Of a DNA stretch of 64,000 nt, positions 6,502 to 12,597 are shown one piece after another. This DNA is from Woeseia oceani (GTDB lineage Bacteria > Pseudomonadota > Gammaproteobacteria > Steroidobacterales > Woeseiaceae), in NCBI RefSeq assembly GCF_001677435.1, contig NZ_CP016268.1, positions 3,585,001 through 3,649,000 on the forward strand. Direction: 5' to 3'. Below the pieces are notes generated by a model. That model was not told the origin of the DNA and did not search any database. It saw only the letters and a list, made by a program, of their open reading frames with translations. The position numbers were made by a program, and so were the translations under genes. The stretch's first letter is position 1. Every line of letters begins with the position of its first letter.

Positions 6502-8724
6502 TTACAGCCGGTAGCTCAACCCAACCCAGGCCGTACGCTCCAGGCCCGGACGCAAACCAGCGGGGCGCCGCGCGGCCACGTAAGTTTCGTCGAACAGGTT
6601 GTCGACTTTTACGTAGCTCGAAAACTGGTCGTTGAAATGCCAGCGACCAACCAGGTCCCAGACGACGTGTGAATCAATTGTCTCGGACGATGCGTAGCCG
6701 CCTTGACCGGCGACGGTACGCATGCGACCAACGTAGTTCGCGGCGAGATTCACGCCCAGTTTGTCGGCTTCGAGGCCCGCCGTGAGTCTGAGCTGGTGTT
6801 CCGGGATGTAAGGCAGTTCATCGCCTACGGCGACATCGCCCCAGGGTTCGAAACCACTTTCAAACGCATTGTGGAACTCCGCCTCGCGGGTCCACGTGTA
6901 TTCCAGCGCGAGCGGCATCTGCAGGCTGCCATTGGCCAGTCCTGCAAGTGTGTAGCCTGCACTCAGCTCCAGTCCCTGCACGGTCACTTCGCCGCCGTCG
7001 AACTGATCGCCGATCTGCCCATTGCCGCCAGTGGATGCAGTGACTGTACCGACGAGATTGTCATAGTCGTTGATAAACCAGATGGACTCGAAGGTCAGCG
7101 CGTCGTTCGCGTAACGTGCACCGAACTCCATGTTCAGGCTTTCCTCTTCCTGCGCGCTGCTGCCTGGGCCTGGCGGATTGAAGCCTTTGTGCACGCCAGC
7201 AAGCAGGCGCCAGTGATCACTCACGCGATACAGCGCACCCATGCCCGGTATAACCACCGACACCGAATTATCGCGCACTTGCGTTGGACCAAGCGCTCGC
7301 GACGGATCGCTGGTGGAGTAATCGTAGCGCGTCATATCTATGTCTTCGAAGCGCATACCGGGTGCGAATATCCAGTTGCCGGTGCGAATTTCGGAAGTAA
7401 GGAACAGCGCCGTCACCCGTGCATCGCTGACCCGATTCGTCGCCGAGCCGGGTGCGCCGGTGCTGGTCTGTACGAGTTGCATGTCCTGCATGCGGAATCC
7501 ATCGTCCTGCTGCAAACGGTCTTCCTCGTCTTCGTGCAAGCGCACGCCGCCAGTCAACGCAATCTCAGTATCGCCGACGTTCAGGTCCCAGCTAAGCGAG
7601 CCTTGAATACCCTGTGAATAGTATTCGCGGCTGTTGTGACGTTTGATGATGGCATCATCGGGGCTGGTCGTGCCCTGTAAGTAGGCAAGCTCGGTGGCAT
7701 AGGTCACGGGGTCCTCCAGCACGGACGACATACCGGCACCATTAACGGATTGAAGCTTGAACCAGTTGCGTGCGAAGTTATTGCGGTAAGCCGTCACTTC
7801 GGCGCGCCACGGACCGTCGTTGTCAACGAGGTAACTTAGTTGCAGCTGTTCGTGTTCACCAAGGAAGCGATCGCCGGCCGACGCGGCGTAACGTCGATTA
7901 GGGTCTGCCGCAACGTCAGCTTCAGTCAGTCCAAGGTAGGTTTCGTCCGACACCTGGTCCGTGTAGCCGGCCTTCAGCCGCAGGCTCTGGTTTAGGCGCG
8001 CATTCGGGTCGCTGTCGAACTGCAGCTTGACCATGTAATCCTCGATGTCGAAGCCGGTCTCGTTGCCAGCCGGCCCATCGATAGTCTTGAAGCCATCACT
8101 CACGCTCTGCACGGTTTCAACCAGCCACGAAAATCGTTCGCCGCGGTTGCCGGCATTCAGGTGAGCATCCACGCTGTCATTCTGGCCCAGCCGGAGATCG
8201 ATATTCGCGGACAGCTCGTCCGGAATCGGTGTTGAAATCAGGTTAATGGCACCGCCTGTCGTGCGCGGACCCACGGTAATCGCGGCCGGACCTTTCAGCA
8301 CTTCCACGGCGTGCATGCGCCGCTGAGTCGGAAAGTAATAGGCCGACGATGCCGCGTACGGTGCCGGTGCGATCAGAACGCCATCTTCAAGCAGCGCGAT
8401 GCGTGCACTGCGATCCAGACCCGAACCACGAATACCGATGTTCGGCCGCAGGCCGAAACCGTCCTCTTCTTGCACGTAGACACCCGGGACCGTGCGCAGC
8501 ACGCGCATGACATCCGACTGCATGAAGGCATTGAGCTCCTCGTTGTCGACGACGTGTGCGGAGCCCGGAATGTCACTGACATCGCGGCGGTGGCCGATGA
8601 TGGTGACGTTGTCGAGCGGCTCGCTCGCGCCGCTTGCCGCCAGGTCCTGAGCAAATAATGGCATGCCGGTCAGCAGCATCAGTACGCCGCCGGCGCGGGC
8701 GGTGCTGCGAAGGGGGTGGTGCAT
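6502..8724 (-). CDS. TonB-dependent receptor, FecA-like
   Basis: A 740-residue outer-membrane gated barrel for energy-dependent uptake, probably of a ferric chelate. After a signal peptide (ARAGGVLMLLTGMPLFAQ) comes the plug domain, with VPGVYVQEEDGFGLRPNIGI and VEVLKGPAAITVGPRTTGGA, wording typical of FecA-type receptors. It ends in a barrel closing VGLSYRL. The start is the ATG giving MHHPLRST, preceded by AGAGG; a longer frame reads back into the promoter. A Fur-like 15-bp palindrome sits about 57 bp upstream, so iron repression is likely. No sigma/anti-sigma partner lies next to it. The substrate cannot be told from sequence. Confidence 0.9.
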   Translation of the reverse strand: MHHPLRSTARAGGVLMLLTGMPLFAQDLAASGASEPLDNVTIIGHRRDVSDIPGSAHVVDNEELNAFMQSDVMRVLRTVPGVYVQEEDGFGLRPNIGIRGSGLDRSARIALLEDGVLIAPAPYAASSAYYFPTQRRMHAVEVLKGPAAITVGPRTTGGAINLISTPIPDELSANIDLRLGQNDSVDAHLNAGNRGERFSWLVETVQSVSDGFKTIDGPAGNETGFDIEDYMVKLQFDSDPNARLNQSLRLKAGYTDQVSDETYLGLTEADVAADPNRRYAASAGDRFLGEHEQLQLSYLVDNDGPWRAEVTAYRNNFARNWFKLQSVNGAGMSSVLEDPVTYATELAYLQGTTSPDDAIIKRHNSREYYSQGIQGSLSWDLNVGDTEIALTGGVRLHEDEEDRLQQDDGFRMQDMQLVQTSTGAPGSATNRVSDARVTALFLTSEIRTGNWIFAPGMRFEDIDMTRYDYSTSDPSRALGPTQVRDNSVSVVIPGMGALYRVSDHWRLLAGVHKGFNPPGPGSSAQEEESLNMEFGARYANDALTFESIWFINDYDNLVGTVTASTGGNGQIGDQFDGGEVTVQGLELSAGYTLAGLANGSLQMPLALEYTWTREAEFHNAFESGFEPWGDVAVGDELPYIPEHQLRLTAGLEADKLGVNLAANYVGRMRTVAGQGGYASSETIDSHVVWDLVGRWHFNDQFSSYVKVDNLFDETYVAARRPAGLRPGLERTAWVGLSYRL

Positions 8725-8795: not shown

Positions 8796-8881
8796 ATACA
8801 AAGCACAGCGAAACCATGCTCTCTTCTGTGAGAAACAGCTGTTAGAGCGGTGGATCGGGTGGCCTGGTGGCCTGTGGATCA

Positions 8882-9033
8882 GTGTCTGGCTTATTTTCCG
8901 CGCTCAGGCGACCGTTGACGAACGGCCGCTGACCATGACAAAGACAAGTCCAGTGGTTGGCGACCTGTCCTCGTCTGCAAAATTAACCGGCGCCGCTCAC
9001 GAAGTAACCGGCACGATCAGGGCAGGCACTCGG
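8882..9033 (+). repeat. 152-bp imperfect direct repeat, copy A
   Basis: First of two copies of a 152-bp unit beginning GTGTCTGGCTTATTTTCC and ending GGCAGGCACTCGG. The second copy starts 197 bp further on and has exactly the same length, with about 19 substitutions by eye. The shared core runs from CCATGACAAAGACAAGTCCA to GCTCACGAAGTAAC. The opening motif recurs alone at 9041 and, inverted, near 9299. The unit does not encode a protein. Confidence 0.85.
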
Positions 9034-9040
9034 TAGATTG

Positions 9041-9077
9041 GTGTCTGGCTTATTTTCCGCGCTCAGGCGACTAGAAC
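9041..9077 (+). repeat. partial copy of the repeat head
   Basis: The first 31 bases of the 152-bp unit (GTGTCTGGCTTATTTTCCGC then GCTCAGGCGAC) occur here exactly as in copy A. The copy then stops, and full copy B starts at 9079. This looks like an internal truncation or a recombination product between units. Confidence 0.75.
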
Positions 9078-9078
9078 G

Positions 9079-9230
9079 GTGTCTGGTTTATTTTTCGCGC
9101 ACGAGCGACTACTAACGAACGGCTGCTGGCCATGACAAAGACAAGTCCAGAGGTTGGCGGCCTGTCCTTGTCTGCAAATTTGACCGGCGCCGCTCACGAA
9201 GTAACGGGCACGATCAGGTCAGGCACTTGG
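9079..9230 (+). repeat. 152-bp imperfect direct repeat, copy B
   Basis: Second full unit, GTGTCTGGTTTATTTTTCGC at the head and GTCAGGCACTTGG at the end, the same length as copy A with no gaps. Inside it AGACAAG and CTTGTCT are inverted and could form a hairpin stem around a GC-rich loop; copy A has one mismatch in the same stem. Confidence 0.85.
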
Positions 9231-9272
9231 CGACCTGCCGCCACTGCGAAAACAACATCCGGCAGTTTCCGG

Positions 9273-9316
9273 AAACAAACCTGACGACTTGCGCCGAAGA
9301 AAATAAACCTGACACC
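9273..9316 (-). repeat. inverted copies of the repeat head motif
   Basis: AAACAAACCTGACGAC and GAAAATAAACCTGACACC lie in tandem here. The second is close to the reverse complement of the GGTGTCTGGTTTATTTTT head of the direct repeats. The block from 8882 to 9316 is therefore bounded by head motifs pointing inward, an arrangement seen for REP-like and miniature mobile sequences. No transposase is present. Confidence 0.6.
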
Positions 9317-9372
9317 TTTTGGACACCTTTTGAAACCACAAGATGTTGACATTCGTCCGGCAACTGCCTCAA

Positions 9373-9560
9373 GCTGTAGTGGTTCGACGGTTCGCGCTTA
9401 GCGATGAAAAGGGAATCCGGTGACTGGCAAAAAAGCCAGGATCCCGGAACTGTCCCCGCAACTGTAAACAGCGGTTTCGCACCACAATGCCACTGGGAAT
9501 TCCCGGGAAGGCGGTGCGCAACGCCAACGCTGTGAGTCAGGAGACCTGCCGCCGCAACTT
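9373..9560 (+). ncRNA. cobalamin (AdoCbl) riboswitch
   Basis: The sequence shows the conserved landmarks of the cobalamin riboswitch in order: AAAAGGGAATCCGGTG at 9407, GGAACTGTCCCCGCAACTG then TAA at 9446-9467, GCCACTGGGA near 9489, and the B12 box AGTCAGGAGACCTGCC at 9535-9550. It precedes nrdAB on the same strand by about 115 bp. Such riboswitches normally shut expression off when adenosylcobalamin is plentiful, so the B12-independent reductase would be repressed by B12. Exact ends are approximate. Confidence 0.95.
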
Positions 9561-9582
9561 CGTACTCATCGGACGGGGTGTT

Positions 9583-9623
9583 CCGGGAGGGTTCGTGGCT
9601 GAGCTCCCAATGGTTCCCTCCGG
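9583..9623 (+). promoter_or_regulatory. candidate expression-platform hairpin of the riboswitch
   Basis: CCGGGAGGG and CCCTCCGG can pair into an eight-base-pair stem with one bulge. The CTCCC inside the loop offers a competing partner for GGGAG. It lies between the B12 box and the nrdA ribosome-binding site (AGAGGT at 9662). There is no U-tract after it, so simple intrinsic termination is not obvious. Confidence 0.4.
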
Positions 9624-9673
9624 CCGCTGATTCCTTCGCAAGTGCCCCGTTTACCACGACCAGAGGTAATCGC

Positions 9674-11515
9674 ATGGCACAACCGGCACTTTCCACAACC
9701 ACCCCACCCGTGATGCTCTCGCCTGAGACCGTCATCCACACTGATCCAACCCGCGACGAACGGCTGACCGAGTTTGGCAAGGCGACCATGCGCGATCGCT
9801 ACCTGCTCCCGGGCGAGTCCTACCAGGATTTGTTCGCGCGGGTCGCCAAAGCCTACGCCGACGATCAGCAGCATGCGCAGCGTCTCTACGATTACATGTC
9901 GAAACTCTGGTTCATGCCGGCAACCCCGATCCTCAGCAACGGCGGCACCGCGCGCGGCCTGCCGATTTCCTGCTTTCTGAACGCGGTCGAGGACAGTCTC
10001 GACGGCATCGTCGGCACCTGGATGGAAAATGTCTGGCTGGCCTCCAACGGCGGCGGGATCGGCACCTACTGGGGCGATGTTCGTTCGATCGGCGAGACGG
10101 TGAAGGGCAACGGCCAGACGTCCGGGATCATTCCGTTTGTACGGGTTATGGACTCGCTGACACTGGCCATTTCGCAAGGTTCGCTGCGCCGCGGCTCGGC
10201 GGCCGTCTACCTCGATATCTACCATCCGGAGATCGAGGAGTTCATCGAGATTCGCAAGCCCTCCGGCGACTTCAATCGCAAGAGCCTCAACCTGCACCAC
10301 GGCATCGCCATCACCGACGAGTTCATGGAAGCGGTGCGCGAAGGCAGATCGTTCTCGCTGCGCAGCCCGGCAACCCAGCAAGAGGTCCGGACCGTATCTG
10401 CCCGCGAGCTCTGGCAAAAAATTCTTGAGACCCGGTTGCAAACCGGCGAGCCCTACCTGTTATTCGTGGATACGGCGAATCGCGACCTTGCCAATCACCA
10501 GAAGCAGCTTGGCCTGAAAGTTCGCCAGTCCAATCTTTGCAGTGAAATTCTGCTGCCCACGGGCCGGGACAGTTCCGGCAATCTCCGTACCGCGGTGTGT
10601 TGCCTTGCTTCCGTCAACCTCGTGAAGTGGGACGAATGGCGGCAGGACCAGCGGTTCGTCGAGGACATATTCCGCTTCCTCGACAACGTGCTCGAGGATT
10701 TCATCGTCAATGCGCCGGACAGCATGAGTCATGCGAAATACTCCGCCATGCGCGAACGTTCCGTGGGTCTCGGTGCTATGGGCTTTCACACCTACCTGCA
10801 GGGCCGGGGAATACCGTTCGAAAGCGCGCTCGCGAAAAGCTGGAACATCCGGGTTTTCAAACACCTTCGGGCCGAAGCAGACAAAGCCTCGGTCAGGCTC
10901 GCCCGGGAACGGGGAGCCTGCCCAGACGCCGCGGATGCGGGTGTTATGGAGCGCTTCAGCCACAAACTGTCGATTGCGCCGACCGCCAGCATCAGCATCA
11001 TCTGCGGCGGCACCAGCGCGTGTATTGAGCCGATACCGGGCAACATTTACACCCACAAAACACTGTCCGGCTCGTTCACGGTCAAGAACCCGGAACTCGA
11101 AAAATTGCTGCGTCACAAAGGCCTCGACACTGAGGAAACCTGGGCGTCGATCCTCCAGCATGATGGCTCTGTCCAGCACTTCGAATGTTTAAACGAGGAC
11201 GAGAAGGCCGTGTTCCGCACATCGTTCGAGATCGACCAGCGCTGGGTAATCGACCTCGCCGCAGATCGTGCCCCGAGCATATGCCAGGGGCAATCCGTGA
11301 ATCTTTTTCTCAACAGCGACCTGCACAAATGGGATCTGCTCATGCTGCATTGGCTGGCCTGGGAACGCGGCATCAAGAGTCTCTACTACTGCCGTTCCAA
11401 ATCCGTGCAACGCGCAGGCTACGCCGGCGTGGAAGCCGACAACACTCAGCAATGGCCGGAACGCGCTCTTGCGACCAACCTGTCGAACTACGACGAATGC
11501 CTCGCCTGCCAATAG
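9674..11515 (+). CDS. nrdA: class I ribonucleotide reductase, large subunit
   Basis: Reduces ribonucleotides to deoxyribonucleotides together with NrdB. In 613 residues the key residues are all visible: redox pair Cys100 (PISCFLNAV) and Cys309 (AVCCLAS), radical Cys289 with Asn287 and Glu291 (SNLCSEI), radical-path tyrosines Tyr571-Tyr572 (SLYYCRS), and the C-terminal shuttle pair Cys609/Cys612 (ECLACQ). It is shorter than E. coli NrdA and begins close to the barrel, so the N-terminal ATP cone appears to be missing; overall activity control by dATP may be absent. The ATG is preceded by AGAGGT; a longer frame would read back into the riboswitch. nrdB follows after 29 bp. Confidence 0.95.
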   Translation: MAQPALSTTTPPVMLSPETVIHTDPTRDERLTEFGKATMRDRYLLPGESYQDLFARVAKAYADDQQHAQRLYDYMSKLWFMPATPILSNGGTARGLPISCFLNAVEDSLDGIVGTWMENVWLASNGGGIGTYWGDVRSIGETVKGNGQTSGIIPFVRVMDSLTLAISQGSLRRGSAAVYLDIYHPEIEEFIEIRKPSGDFNRKSLNLHHGIAITDEFMEAVREGRSFSLRSPATQQEVRTVSARELWQKILETRLQTGEPYLLFVDTANRDLANHQKQLGLKVRQSNLCSEILLPTGRDSSGNLRTAVCCLASVNLVKWDEWRQDQRFVEDIFRFLDNVLEDFIVNAPDSMSHAKYSAMRERSVGLGAMGFHTYLQGRGIPFESALAKSWNIRVFKHLRAEADKASVRLARERGACPDAADAGVMERFSHKLSIAPTASISIICGGTSACIEPIPGNIYTHKTLSGSFTVKNPELEKLLRHKGLDTEETWASILQHDGSVQHFECLNEDEKAVFRTSFEIDQRWVIDLAADRAPSICQGQSVNLFLNSDLHKWDLLMLHWLAWERGIKSLYYCRSKSVQRAGYAGVEADNTQQWPERALATNLSNYDECLACQ

Positions 11516-11544
11516 ACGGCACCCCTCTTTGGAGTTACCCATAA

Positions 11545-12597
11545 ATGTCACAAGAAAAATCGCAGATCGCCCTGCTCGAATTACCCGGGCTCATGACCCC
11601 CAGCAAGAGCTACAAACCGTTTCGTTATCCGTGGGCTATTGAGTACTGGCGCAAACAACAGCAGATTCACTGGCTGCCCGAAGAAGTGCCGCTTGGAGAA
11701 GATTGCAAAGACTGGGCGCACAACCTGAGTGACGCGGAACGCAATCTCCTCACGCAGGTTTTTCGGTTCTTCACCCAATCGGACGTAGAGGTTCAGGACA
11801 ACTACCTGGAACGTTACGCCCGGGTGTTCCGGCCCACCGAGATCAAGATGATGCTCGCGGCATTTGCCAACATGGAAACCGTGCACATCGTCGCTTATGC
11901 ACTGCTGCTCGAAACGCTGGGGATGCCGGACAGTGAGTTTGCCGCGTTCATGGACTACGAAGCCATGCGCGACAAACACGACTACATGCAGGAATTCGGT
12001 GTCTCCAATGAAGGCGATATCCTGCGCACACTCGCGATGTTTGGCGGCTTTACCGAGGGCCTGCAGTTGTTCGCCAGTTTCGCAATCCTGCTGAATTTTC
12101 CGCGCCACAACAAAATGCGTGGCATGGGCCAGATCGTGTCCTGGTCAGTACGTGACGAGAGTCTGCATTGCGAAGGCGTGTTGCGCCTGTTCCATGCTTT
12201 TGCCGAAGAGACAGGCGCGTTGACCCGCTCTGTGCGGGATGACATCGCCGACTGCGCACGGACGGTCGTAACGCTCGAAGACCGCTTTATTGATCTGGCC
12301 TTTGAAATGGGCCCGCTCGATGGCCTGGAACCGGCCGAGGTCAAACGCTATATACGCTATATCGCTGACTGGCGACTTGAACAATTGTCGCTACCACCGA
12401 TCTACGGCGAGAAAGTGCACCCACTGCCCTGGCTAACGGAAATTCTGAACGGCGTGGAACACGCCAACTTTTTTGAAACCCGCGCCACCGAGTATGCAAA
12501 AGCGGCAACCGTTGGAAGCTGGCACGGTGCCGAAGGTGCCTGGTCGATATTTGACGAACGACTGGCAAGAGTTCGTCAGTCGACGCTTCCGGTATGA
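11545..12597 (+). CDS. nrdB: class I ribonucleotide reductase, small subunit
   Basis: The metal-radical subunit, 350 residues, co-transcribed with nrdA. Metal ligands are recognisable: Glu111 and His114 (METVHIVAY), Glu171 (TEGLQLF), Glu205 and His208 (RDESLHCE). Tyr118 stands four residues after His114, where the stable tyrosyl radical forms in standard class Ia enzymes, so this looks like a tyrosyl-radical type. The opening YKPFRYPWAIEYW and the ending EYAKAATVGSW resemble the alphaproteobacterial-type NrdB branch more than the E. coli one. The riboswitch upstream should control both genes. Confidence 0.95.
   Translation: MSQEKSQIALLELPGLMTPSKSYKPFRYPWAIEYWRKQQQIHWLPEEVPLGEDCKDWAHNLSDAERNLLTQVFRFFTQSDVEVQDNYLERYARVFRPTEIKMMLAAFANMETVHIVAYALLLETLGMPDSEFAAFMDYEAMRDKHDYMQEFGVSNEGDILRTLAMFGGFTEGLQLFASFAILLNFPRHNKMRGMGQIVSWSVRDESLHCEGVLRLFHAFAEETGALTRSVRDDIADCARTVVTLEDRFIDLAFEMGPLDGLEPAEVKRYIRYIADWRLEQLSLPPIYGEKVHPLPWLTEILNGVEHANFFETRATEYAKAATVGSWHGAEGAWSIFDERLARVRQSTLPV

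Follow-up and report, generated by a model that had tools for sequence, protein, structure and literature searches.

A B12 riboswitch ahead of a B12-independent reductase

Why would the genes of a ribonucleotide reductase (RNR) that needs no B12 be preceded by a B12-binding RNA? The question is raised by the nrdAB operon of Woeseia oceani, located in a 64,000-nt stretch (the window, to which all positions refer) of a genome consisting of one 4.06-Mb contig. We think it likely, at a probability of roughly 0.8, that nrdAB is a riboswitch-controlled, B12-free backup to the B12-dependent reductase NrdJ in a cell that imports its B12.

Searching the whole window with cmscan matched the Rfam Cobalamin model RF00174 at 9371-9567 on the plus strand (113.9 bits, gathering score 31.5, E = 8.5e-28), spanning model positions 1-189 of 189 without truncation, and this was the sole match above any gathering score in the 64,000 nt. 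The aptamer lies directly 5' of nrdA (9674-11515), which is followed by nrdB (11545-12597). A cobalamin riboswitch upstream of nrdAB had been recognized in a preliminary description of the locus, which named a covariance-model search as the check to make and is borne out by it; the span given there, 9373-12597, starts 2 bases inside the Rfam match and ends with the nrdB stop codon. At the L5 position of the RF00174 alignment, CCCCG (9454-9458, plus strand) is complementary to CGGGG at 9574-9578, in the loop of a P13-L13 hairpin (UCGGA/UCCGG; 9569-9586, plus strand), and we propose the two as kissing-loop partners, following the L5-L13 interaction described in PMC9600662 (cited, like the comparative literature below, from excerpts). 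The motif CGGGGTG with a flanking stem of 4-5 bp recurs in 11 of 11 riboswitch-nrdA leaders.

Family and Pfam matches identify both genes, on the plus strand, as class I subunits, confirming the earlier view that the downstream enzyme needs no B12. The large subunit NrdA has 613 aa (NF006577/PRK09102, 992.9 bits against a cut-off of 620; PF02867 and PF00317) and the small subunit NrdB 350 aa (NF007186, 542.4 bits against 237; PF00268). An ExxHxxxY motif and, by E. coli numbering, the other metal-ligand positions can be read in the NrdB sequence. The solved alpha subunits nearest to NrdA are 6dqw and 6dqx, which we take to be class Id enzymes. The gene next after nrdB encodes an OmpA-like outer-membrane protein.

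B12 economy of the genome

A class II nrdJ, whose presence elsewhere in the genome had been predicted, was found (TIGR02504, 576.2 bits over a cut-off of 399.95), accompanied by a separate TSCPD-domain gene, and the genome thus holds a B12-dependent isozyme; class III NrdD had no match in the genome. Because the riboswitch, the class I nrdAB and nrdJ are all supported, the preliminary description stands on both points where it could have failed: RF00174 scores the region, and another RNR exists.

One other cobalamin riboswitch occurs in the genome, ahead of a btuB-like receptor gene (best family TIGR01779, 317.7 bits, yet below its cut-off of 599.7) that is followed by a PduO-type adenosyltransferase gene. 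CbiC, the single marker used here for corrin synthesis, was found in none of the 99 genomes of the order, that of W. oceani included (control: present in 7 of 14), and the bacterium appears unable to make vitamin B12 and obliged to import it. Since MetH is present and MetE had no match in the genome, nrdAB would relieve DNA synthesis of its B12 requirement while leaving methionine synthesis dependent on the cofactor.

A predicted NrdR operator at the riboswitch edge

Two NrdR boxes are predicted upstream of nrdA on the plus strand, box 1 (CCACAAGATGTTGACA) at 9336-9351 and box 2 (CCTCAAGCTGTAGTGG) at 9367-9382, by a matrix whose training set was limited to riboswitch-free nrdA loci. Their 31-bp spacing is canonical, and they form the best-scoring pair at that spacing on the plus strand of the window in the matrix scan. 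Taken singly, each box is weak (10/16 by plain consensus count), and a plain count, in which none reached at least 11/16, had led to the conclusion that no NrdR box precedes nrdA, a conclusion overturned by the matrix together with the 31-bp spacing. Pairs at 31 or 32 bp are predicted in 9 of the 11 riboswitch leaders, and in each of seven retested leaders none of 200 shuffled sequences scored as high as the pair; the riboswitch-bearing leaders L042 and L069 had no pair. A TTGACA -35-like hexamer lies within box 1 (9346-9351); a promoter scan returned no sigma-70-type promoter in 9100-9750, the -10 hexamer being poor. The genome encodes NrdR (TIGR00244, 219.9 bits against a cut-off of 124.65), alongside the two boxes predicted at the nrdAB promoter with a separation of some three helix turns. 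This operator and -35 element (9336-9382) were absent from the preliminary description. Box 2 of the pair extends across the 5' border of the riboswitch match. We predict from sequence that nrdAB answers to dNTPs as well as to B12. NrdR-box pairs were also predicted in 19 of 21 nrdJ leaders, with a spacing of 179 bp in 12 of the 19, among leaders of which 20 were hand-picked from the RNR list of the order's genomes rather than randomly sampled.

Possible mechanism of shut-off

From the computed elements (the riboswitch, the genes, nrdJ, the nrdR gene, the NrdR-box pair, the conserved P13-L13 and the absence of CbiC) we infer a direction of control, a translational mechanism, NrdR binding and an AND gate. 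Plentiful coenzyme B12 would bind the leader RNA and the L5-L13 kissing complex would form, turning nrdAB expression off, probably at translation; with scarce B12 the leader would relax and NrdAB would take over dNTP synthesis. When dNTPs are high, NrdR loaded with dATP/ATP should hold down nrdAB and nrdJ alike, acting at their promoters. Given NrdR repression at high dNTPs and riboswitch shut-off at high B12, nrdAB would be on only when both are low.

Shut-off would probably be at translation rather than transcription, because no intrinsic terminator was found by a scan of the plus strand of 9100-9750. Folding predicts a local hairpin (UUACC/GGUAA; 9651-9669, plus strand) partly over the ribosome-binding site AGAGG (9662-9666); in this leader alone the hairpin is not significant (fraction of shuffles 0.685), and pairing of the ribosome site exceeds shuffles only when nine leaders are pooled (p = 0.010). 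An anti-sequestor role of L13 was not significant (p = 0.20). In constrained folding with P13 forced and L13 unpaired, accessibility of the ribosome site was not lowered in the window (mean 0.50 in both states) and increased in the leaders of G057 and L050. Neither constrained folding, nor the anti-sequestor test, nor the terminator scan revealed a route from the ligand state to the ribosome site.

Alternatively, B12 binding might end transcription of the leader through Rho or a non-canonical terminator, as has been suggested for the nrdAB operon of Propionibacterium (Cutibacterium) acnes, where much transcription stops ahead of the first gene (PMC3848588). In its favour, a GC-rich hairpin (CCGGGAGGG...CCCUCCGG, about 9584-9622) comes after P13 here. 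However, that hairpin is followed by no U-run and the terminator scan was empty, and we regard a transcriptional switch as unlikely without being far-fetched.

Distribution among relatives and origin

An RNR large subunit was found in 95 of 99 genomes of the order, mostly of class II by match pattern. An nrdA of the present kind occurs in only 5 of the 99, with a riboswitch directly upstream in all five (adjacency judged by eye). In L067, cobalamin riboswitches stand back to back, one toward metE (957.8 bits) and one toward nrdAB, each of which encodes a B12-independent isozyme. Among 80 relatives (the best 80 of 314 genomes encoding a relative), NrdJ exceeded the cut-off in 7 of 7 riboswitch-bearing genomes and in 30 of 73 without a riboswitch (Fisher p = 0.0032), an association that is not phylogenetically independent, amounting to one or two contrasts on the tree (sign test p = 1). 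Riboswitches were called by Rfam at 16 of these loci and by motif matching within at most 900 upstream bases at the other 64 (100 bases at L028). The NrdAs encoded behind a riboswitch are consistent with a single origin. A MITE-like element lies upstream of the operon; it has no second copy beyond 23 bp in the genome, and for this reason we do not claim that it moved the operon by transposition.

The RNA and the gene seem to have travelled together, and the B12 box in the window reads GUCAGGAGACC against a consensus of GCCAGGAGACC, a departure shared with G057, G090 and G094; the riboswitch might accordingly be an unresponsive hitch-hiker, inherited with a transferred nrdAB, in which case NrdR would be the only control on expression from the nrdAB promoter. 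Yet the aptamer is full-length and high-scoring (113.9 bits), and L5, L13 and P13 are conserved in 11 of 11 leaders despite diverged flanking sequence, which makes this reading very improbable.

The missing ATP cone

The preliminary description was right that NrdA lacks an ATP cone: PF03477 was found in neither NrdA nor NrdB (Pfam, E <= 0.001). The only ATP cone found in the genome is that of NrdR, and the domain is absent from both reductases, NrdAB and NrdJ; cone-free subclasses, NrdAi and NrdAk, appear in published phylogenies (PMC5794259, PMC9669993). The further suggestion that riboswitch control replaces a lost cone accords with its absence from NrdA and NrdB but is barely credible, since the 80 nearest NrdAs, riboswitch-free ones included, show no cone by open-frame length (in 75 of the 80, the open frame extends for less than 75 residues ahead of the match; the L028 locus runs off its contig) and by a Pfam scan of seven relatives' N-termini, the five longest included, while only seven carry a riboswitch, dNTP sensing for nrdAB is predicted to be by NrdR, and the B12 level is no read-out of the dNTP level. 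Two questions formerly joined are thus separated, cofactor control (the riboswitch) and product control (NrdR).

Comparison with known systems

The control logic is already known in other bacteria, and W. oceani nrdAB is a well-supported new example; the earlier statement that it is known in a few bacteria was too narrow, as the excerpts report it in actinobacteria and delta-proteobacteria. In Streptomyces, a coenzyme B12 riboswitch governs nrdABS (Borovok et al. 2006, as cited in PMC5962746) and NrdR binds the nrdAB and nrdRJ promoters (PMC9110341). The W. oceani locus shares the class I operon after a cobalamin riboswitch, the class II enzyme encoded elsewhere and, by prediction, NrdR on the same promoter, but has no nrdS-like third gene, judging by the OmpA-like gene after nrdB; moreover, nrdR lies away from nrdJ, NrdA is without an ATP cone, and CbiC is absent from the genome and the order. 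In P. acnes, which has nrdAB and nrdDG, the nrdAB leader likewise carries a riboswitch and an nrd-box marks the promoter, class II being encoded by an nrdRJ operon (PMC3848588); there, a single nrd-box and an early end to transcription contrast with the 31-bp pair and the lack of a detected terminator here. B12-elements precede nrdDG in delta-proteobacteria with nrdJ (PMC545781), where the rule is the one predicted here, namely that B12 turns down the isozyme able to work without it, although that isozyme is class III rather than class I. NrdA resembles NrdAi/NrdAk (NrdAk median length 620 aa) in its short alpha subunit and missing ATP cone. NrdBi-type small subunits have been described as lacking a suitably placed radical-storing residue, whereas NrdB here keeps the tyrosine of ExxHxxxY. 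The nrd genes are not mentioned in PMC3766115.

Implications

A broader reading, which we advance tentatively as possible but somewhat likelier to be wrong than right, is that a transferable 'B12-insurance' cassette joins an NrdR operator, a cobalamin riboswitch and an uncharacterized ATP-cone-free class I reductase, the overlap of box 2 with the aptamer acting as a DNA-RNA AND gate for low dNTP and low B12. The cassette would have one origin and several gains by lineages with a resident class II enzyme, including this order of apparent B12 importers (5 of 99 genomes). In the genomes concerned, NrdR is also predicted to bind at nrdJ, where its two boxes are separated by about 179 bp (17 helix turns). 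A single repressor would thus control the backup enzyme at close range and the main enzyme by DNA looping.

The locus offers a clean case of a conditional B12 need in DNA synthesis. Import seems to be the only source of B12 in this order, CbiC being found in none of its 99 genomes, and a class II reductase is, by match pattern, nearly universal; the rare genomes with riboswitch-nrdAB may therefore predict which of these bacteria keep replicating when B12 is scarce.

A cobalamin riboswitch precedes nrdAB in a genome that also encodes a class II reductase

The preliminary description placed a cobalamin riboswitch before nrdAB, and this is borne out by a full-length Rfam match at 9371-9567 (+; 113.9 bits, E 8.5e-28), the sole over-threshold Rfam match in the whole 64-kb window. 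On the same strand follow nrdA (starting at 9674; 613 aa; PRK09102, 992.9 bits against a cut-off of 620) and nrdB (starting at 11545; 350 aa; 542.4 bits against 237). The ExxHxxxY motif and the remaining diiron/tyrosyl-radical ligand positions, read by eye from the sequence, are present in NrdB, by E. coli numbering. The B12 box (9537-9547) is GUCAGGAGACC in the window and in three other genomes of the order (G057, G090 and G094), and GCCAGGAGACC in the Rfam consensus and at the relative locus L007. Upstream of nrdAB, a direct repeat (157 nt, 87%) lies within 8877-9319, and a MITE-like stretch of 245 bp (9075-9319; inverted ends of 20 nt, 90%) stops 16 bp before the first predicted NrdR box, with no further copy in the genome beyond a 23-bp match.

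The genome, one contig of 4,059,891 bases (completeness 100), encodes the class II enzyme that had been predicted to lie elsewhere in it (NrdJ_Z, 576.2 bits against a cut-off of 399.95), with the TSCPD domain on a separate gene, and gave no match to NrdD. MetH is present (1767 bits), and MetE had no match. The second of its two cobalamin riboswitches precedes a btuB-like gene (TIGR01779, 317.7 bits, under the cut-off of 599.7), followed by a PduO-type adenosyltransferase gene. None of the 99 sampled genomes of the order, this one included, had a match to CbiC in a search whose control was positive in 7 of 14 known genomes.

It had also been suggested that RNA control may stand in for a missing ATP cone, an idea that finds no support, since no cone is seen in riboswitch-free relatives either and its absence does not track the riboswitch. 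A Pfam scan found no cone in NrdA or NrdB, the single match in the genome being NrdR, and none in seven N-termini of relatives, the five longest included. By open-frame length, fewer than 75 residues precede the matched part of NrdA in 75 of 80 relatives (L028 runs off its contig), and the class I subclasses NrdE, NrdAi and NrdAk are described as never carrying a cone (PMC5794259 and PMC9669993). From these relatives and subclasses, the missing cone is therefore apparently a trait of the NrdA family, independent of the riboswitch.

Distribution and origin of the arrangement

Among the 99 genomes of the order, 91 have a cobalamin riboswitch and 95 an RNR large-subunit barrel. We read most barrel matches as probably class II, from a one-piece pattern and a length like those of the window genome's NrdJ; TIGR02504 was run on that NrdJ and one shorter frame of ~600 aa, which passed (596.7 bits), and the rest are classed by pattern. 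Four genomes (G111, G126, G139 and G136) have NrdJ frames of 1102-1158 aa with a barrel match of ~2.7-2.8 kb against the usual 1.65 kb, a span that an in-frame insert, for example an intein, would give. The two-piece pattern of the window's NrdA occurs in five genomes (G057, G090, G094, G132 and the window's own, G000), all with a riboswitch directly upstream on the same strand (adjacency judged by eye) and a second barrel gene of class II pattern; the G057 copy is fragmentary and lies where its contig ends. At L088 of G057 (6870-7988, +), another cobalamin riboswitch, running divergently to nrdAB, precedes the gene of a BLUF light-sensing protein (PF04940, 82 bits), whose unassigned C-terminal part resembles a B12-binding fold by eye.

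The nearest NrdAs outside the order are nearly all alphaproteobacterial (best 80 of 314 loci). Motif matching found a riboswitch at 7 of these 80 loci; Rfam confirmed all seven and found none at nrdA among nine other loci scanned. NrdJ exceeds its cut-off in 7/7 riboswitch genomes versus 30/73 without (18/43 + 12/30; Fisher p 0.0032), but since the NrdA tree offers just one or two independent contrasts, this association is no more than suggestive. In the tree of 84 rows, the riboswitch label needs 2 changes against a shuffled mean of 10.5, the order's five NrdAs form one group (SH-aLRT 96), and the likelihood improves when all 11 riboswitch rows are constrained to a single clade (p-AU 0.83). 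The simplest reading would be one origin, then joint transfer of gene and leader. At the alphaproteobacterial locus L067, back-to-back cobalamin riboswitches (2190-2401, -, and 2561-2770, +) lie between divergent metE and nrdAB, one rule covering both B12-independent isozymes. Upstream of the riboswitch-free nrdA at L074, a Manganese riboswitch match (2527-2675, -; 45.8 bits against a threshold of 45) lies on the opposite strand.

Predicted NrdR operators at nrdAB and nrdJ

An NrdR box of at least 13/16 occurs within 500 bases upstream at 51 of 73 riboswitch-free nrdA loci. With a matrix trained on 44 such loci holding a box pair (35 spaced 31 or 32 bp), the window pair at 9336-9351 and 9367-9382 (+) ranked first of 127,907 plus-strand pairs (16.85; next 6.9), and again (19.3) after retraining on 31/32-bp pairs only; because the site is palindromic, it also supplies the best 31-bp pair on the minus strand. 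A pair stands at the corresponding place in 9 of 11 riboswitch leaders (L042 and L069 are without), and none of 200 shuffles reached the pair score in each of seven leaders retested. TTGACA lies within predicted box 1, and predicted box 2 runs into the aptamer match at its 5' edge. Two results speak against this operator: the promoter scan reported no sigma-70 promoter at the nrdAB leader, and each box is singly weak (10/16 by consensus count).

NrdR-box pairs are described in the literature consulted as lying about three helix turns apart. At nrdJ, 19 of 21 leaders (20 hand-picked, L103-L122, plus the window genome's own, L092, G000:C1 ~3201091-3201450) have two strong boxes 176-193 bp apart, exactly 179 bp in 12 of the 19, including 10/10 of the window's family. 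This predicted spacing, 17 helix turns at 10.5 bp, would suit looping by NrdR. Between the boxes, 15 leaders share a raw identity of 58-71% with the corresponding DNA of the window genome.

Mode of control

A hairpin (P13-L13, 9569-9586) with CGGGG in its loop is kept in all 11 riboswitch leaders; the loop is complementary to L5 (CCCCG, 9454-9458), a feature of other cobalamin riboswitches (PMC9600662). A scan of the plus strand (9100-9750) gave no intrinsic terminator. A hairpin over the ribosome site was commoner than in shuffles for nine leaders pooled (p 0.010), with no excess in the window leader alone (0.685), and an L13 anti-sequestor was not significant (p 0.20). In constrained folding with P13 forced and L13 free, the window's ribosome site was unchanged and those of G057 and L050 opened slightly, the wrong direction. 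Because the folding tests gave no supporting switch, we infer from the known behaviour of the riboswitch family and from gene content that nrdAB would be off when B12 is present, and rate translational control as somewhat better than even.

Relation to known systems

Cobalamin riboswitches are known before Streptomyces nrdABS (from a title cited in PMC5962746) and before P. acnes nrdAB and nrdDG, together with nrd-boxes (PMC3848588), and delta-proteobacterial nrdDG (PMC545781). Woeseia oceani nrdAB shares with all of these the placement of a riboswitch before a B12-independent reductase. Our search, which lay outside most subscription papers, found no literature on riboswitch-nrdAB in Woeseiales or in any order without CbiC. 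The parts worth following are the paired predicted NrdR operator that overlaps the aptamer edge and the apparently single-origin cassette.
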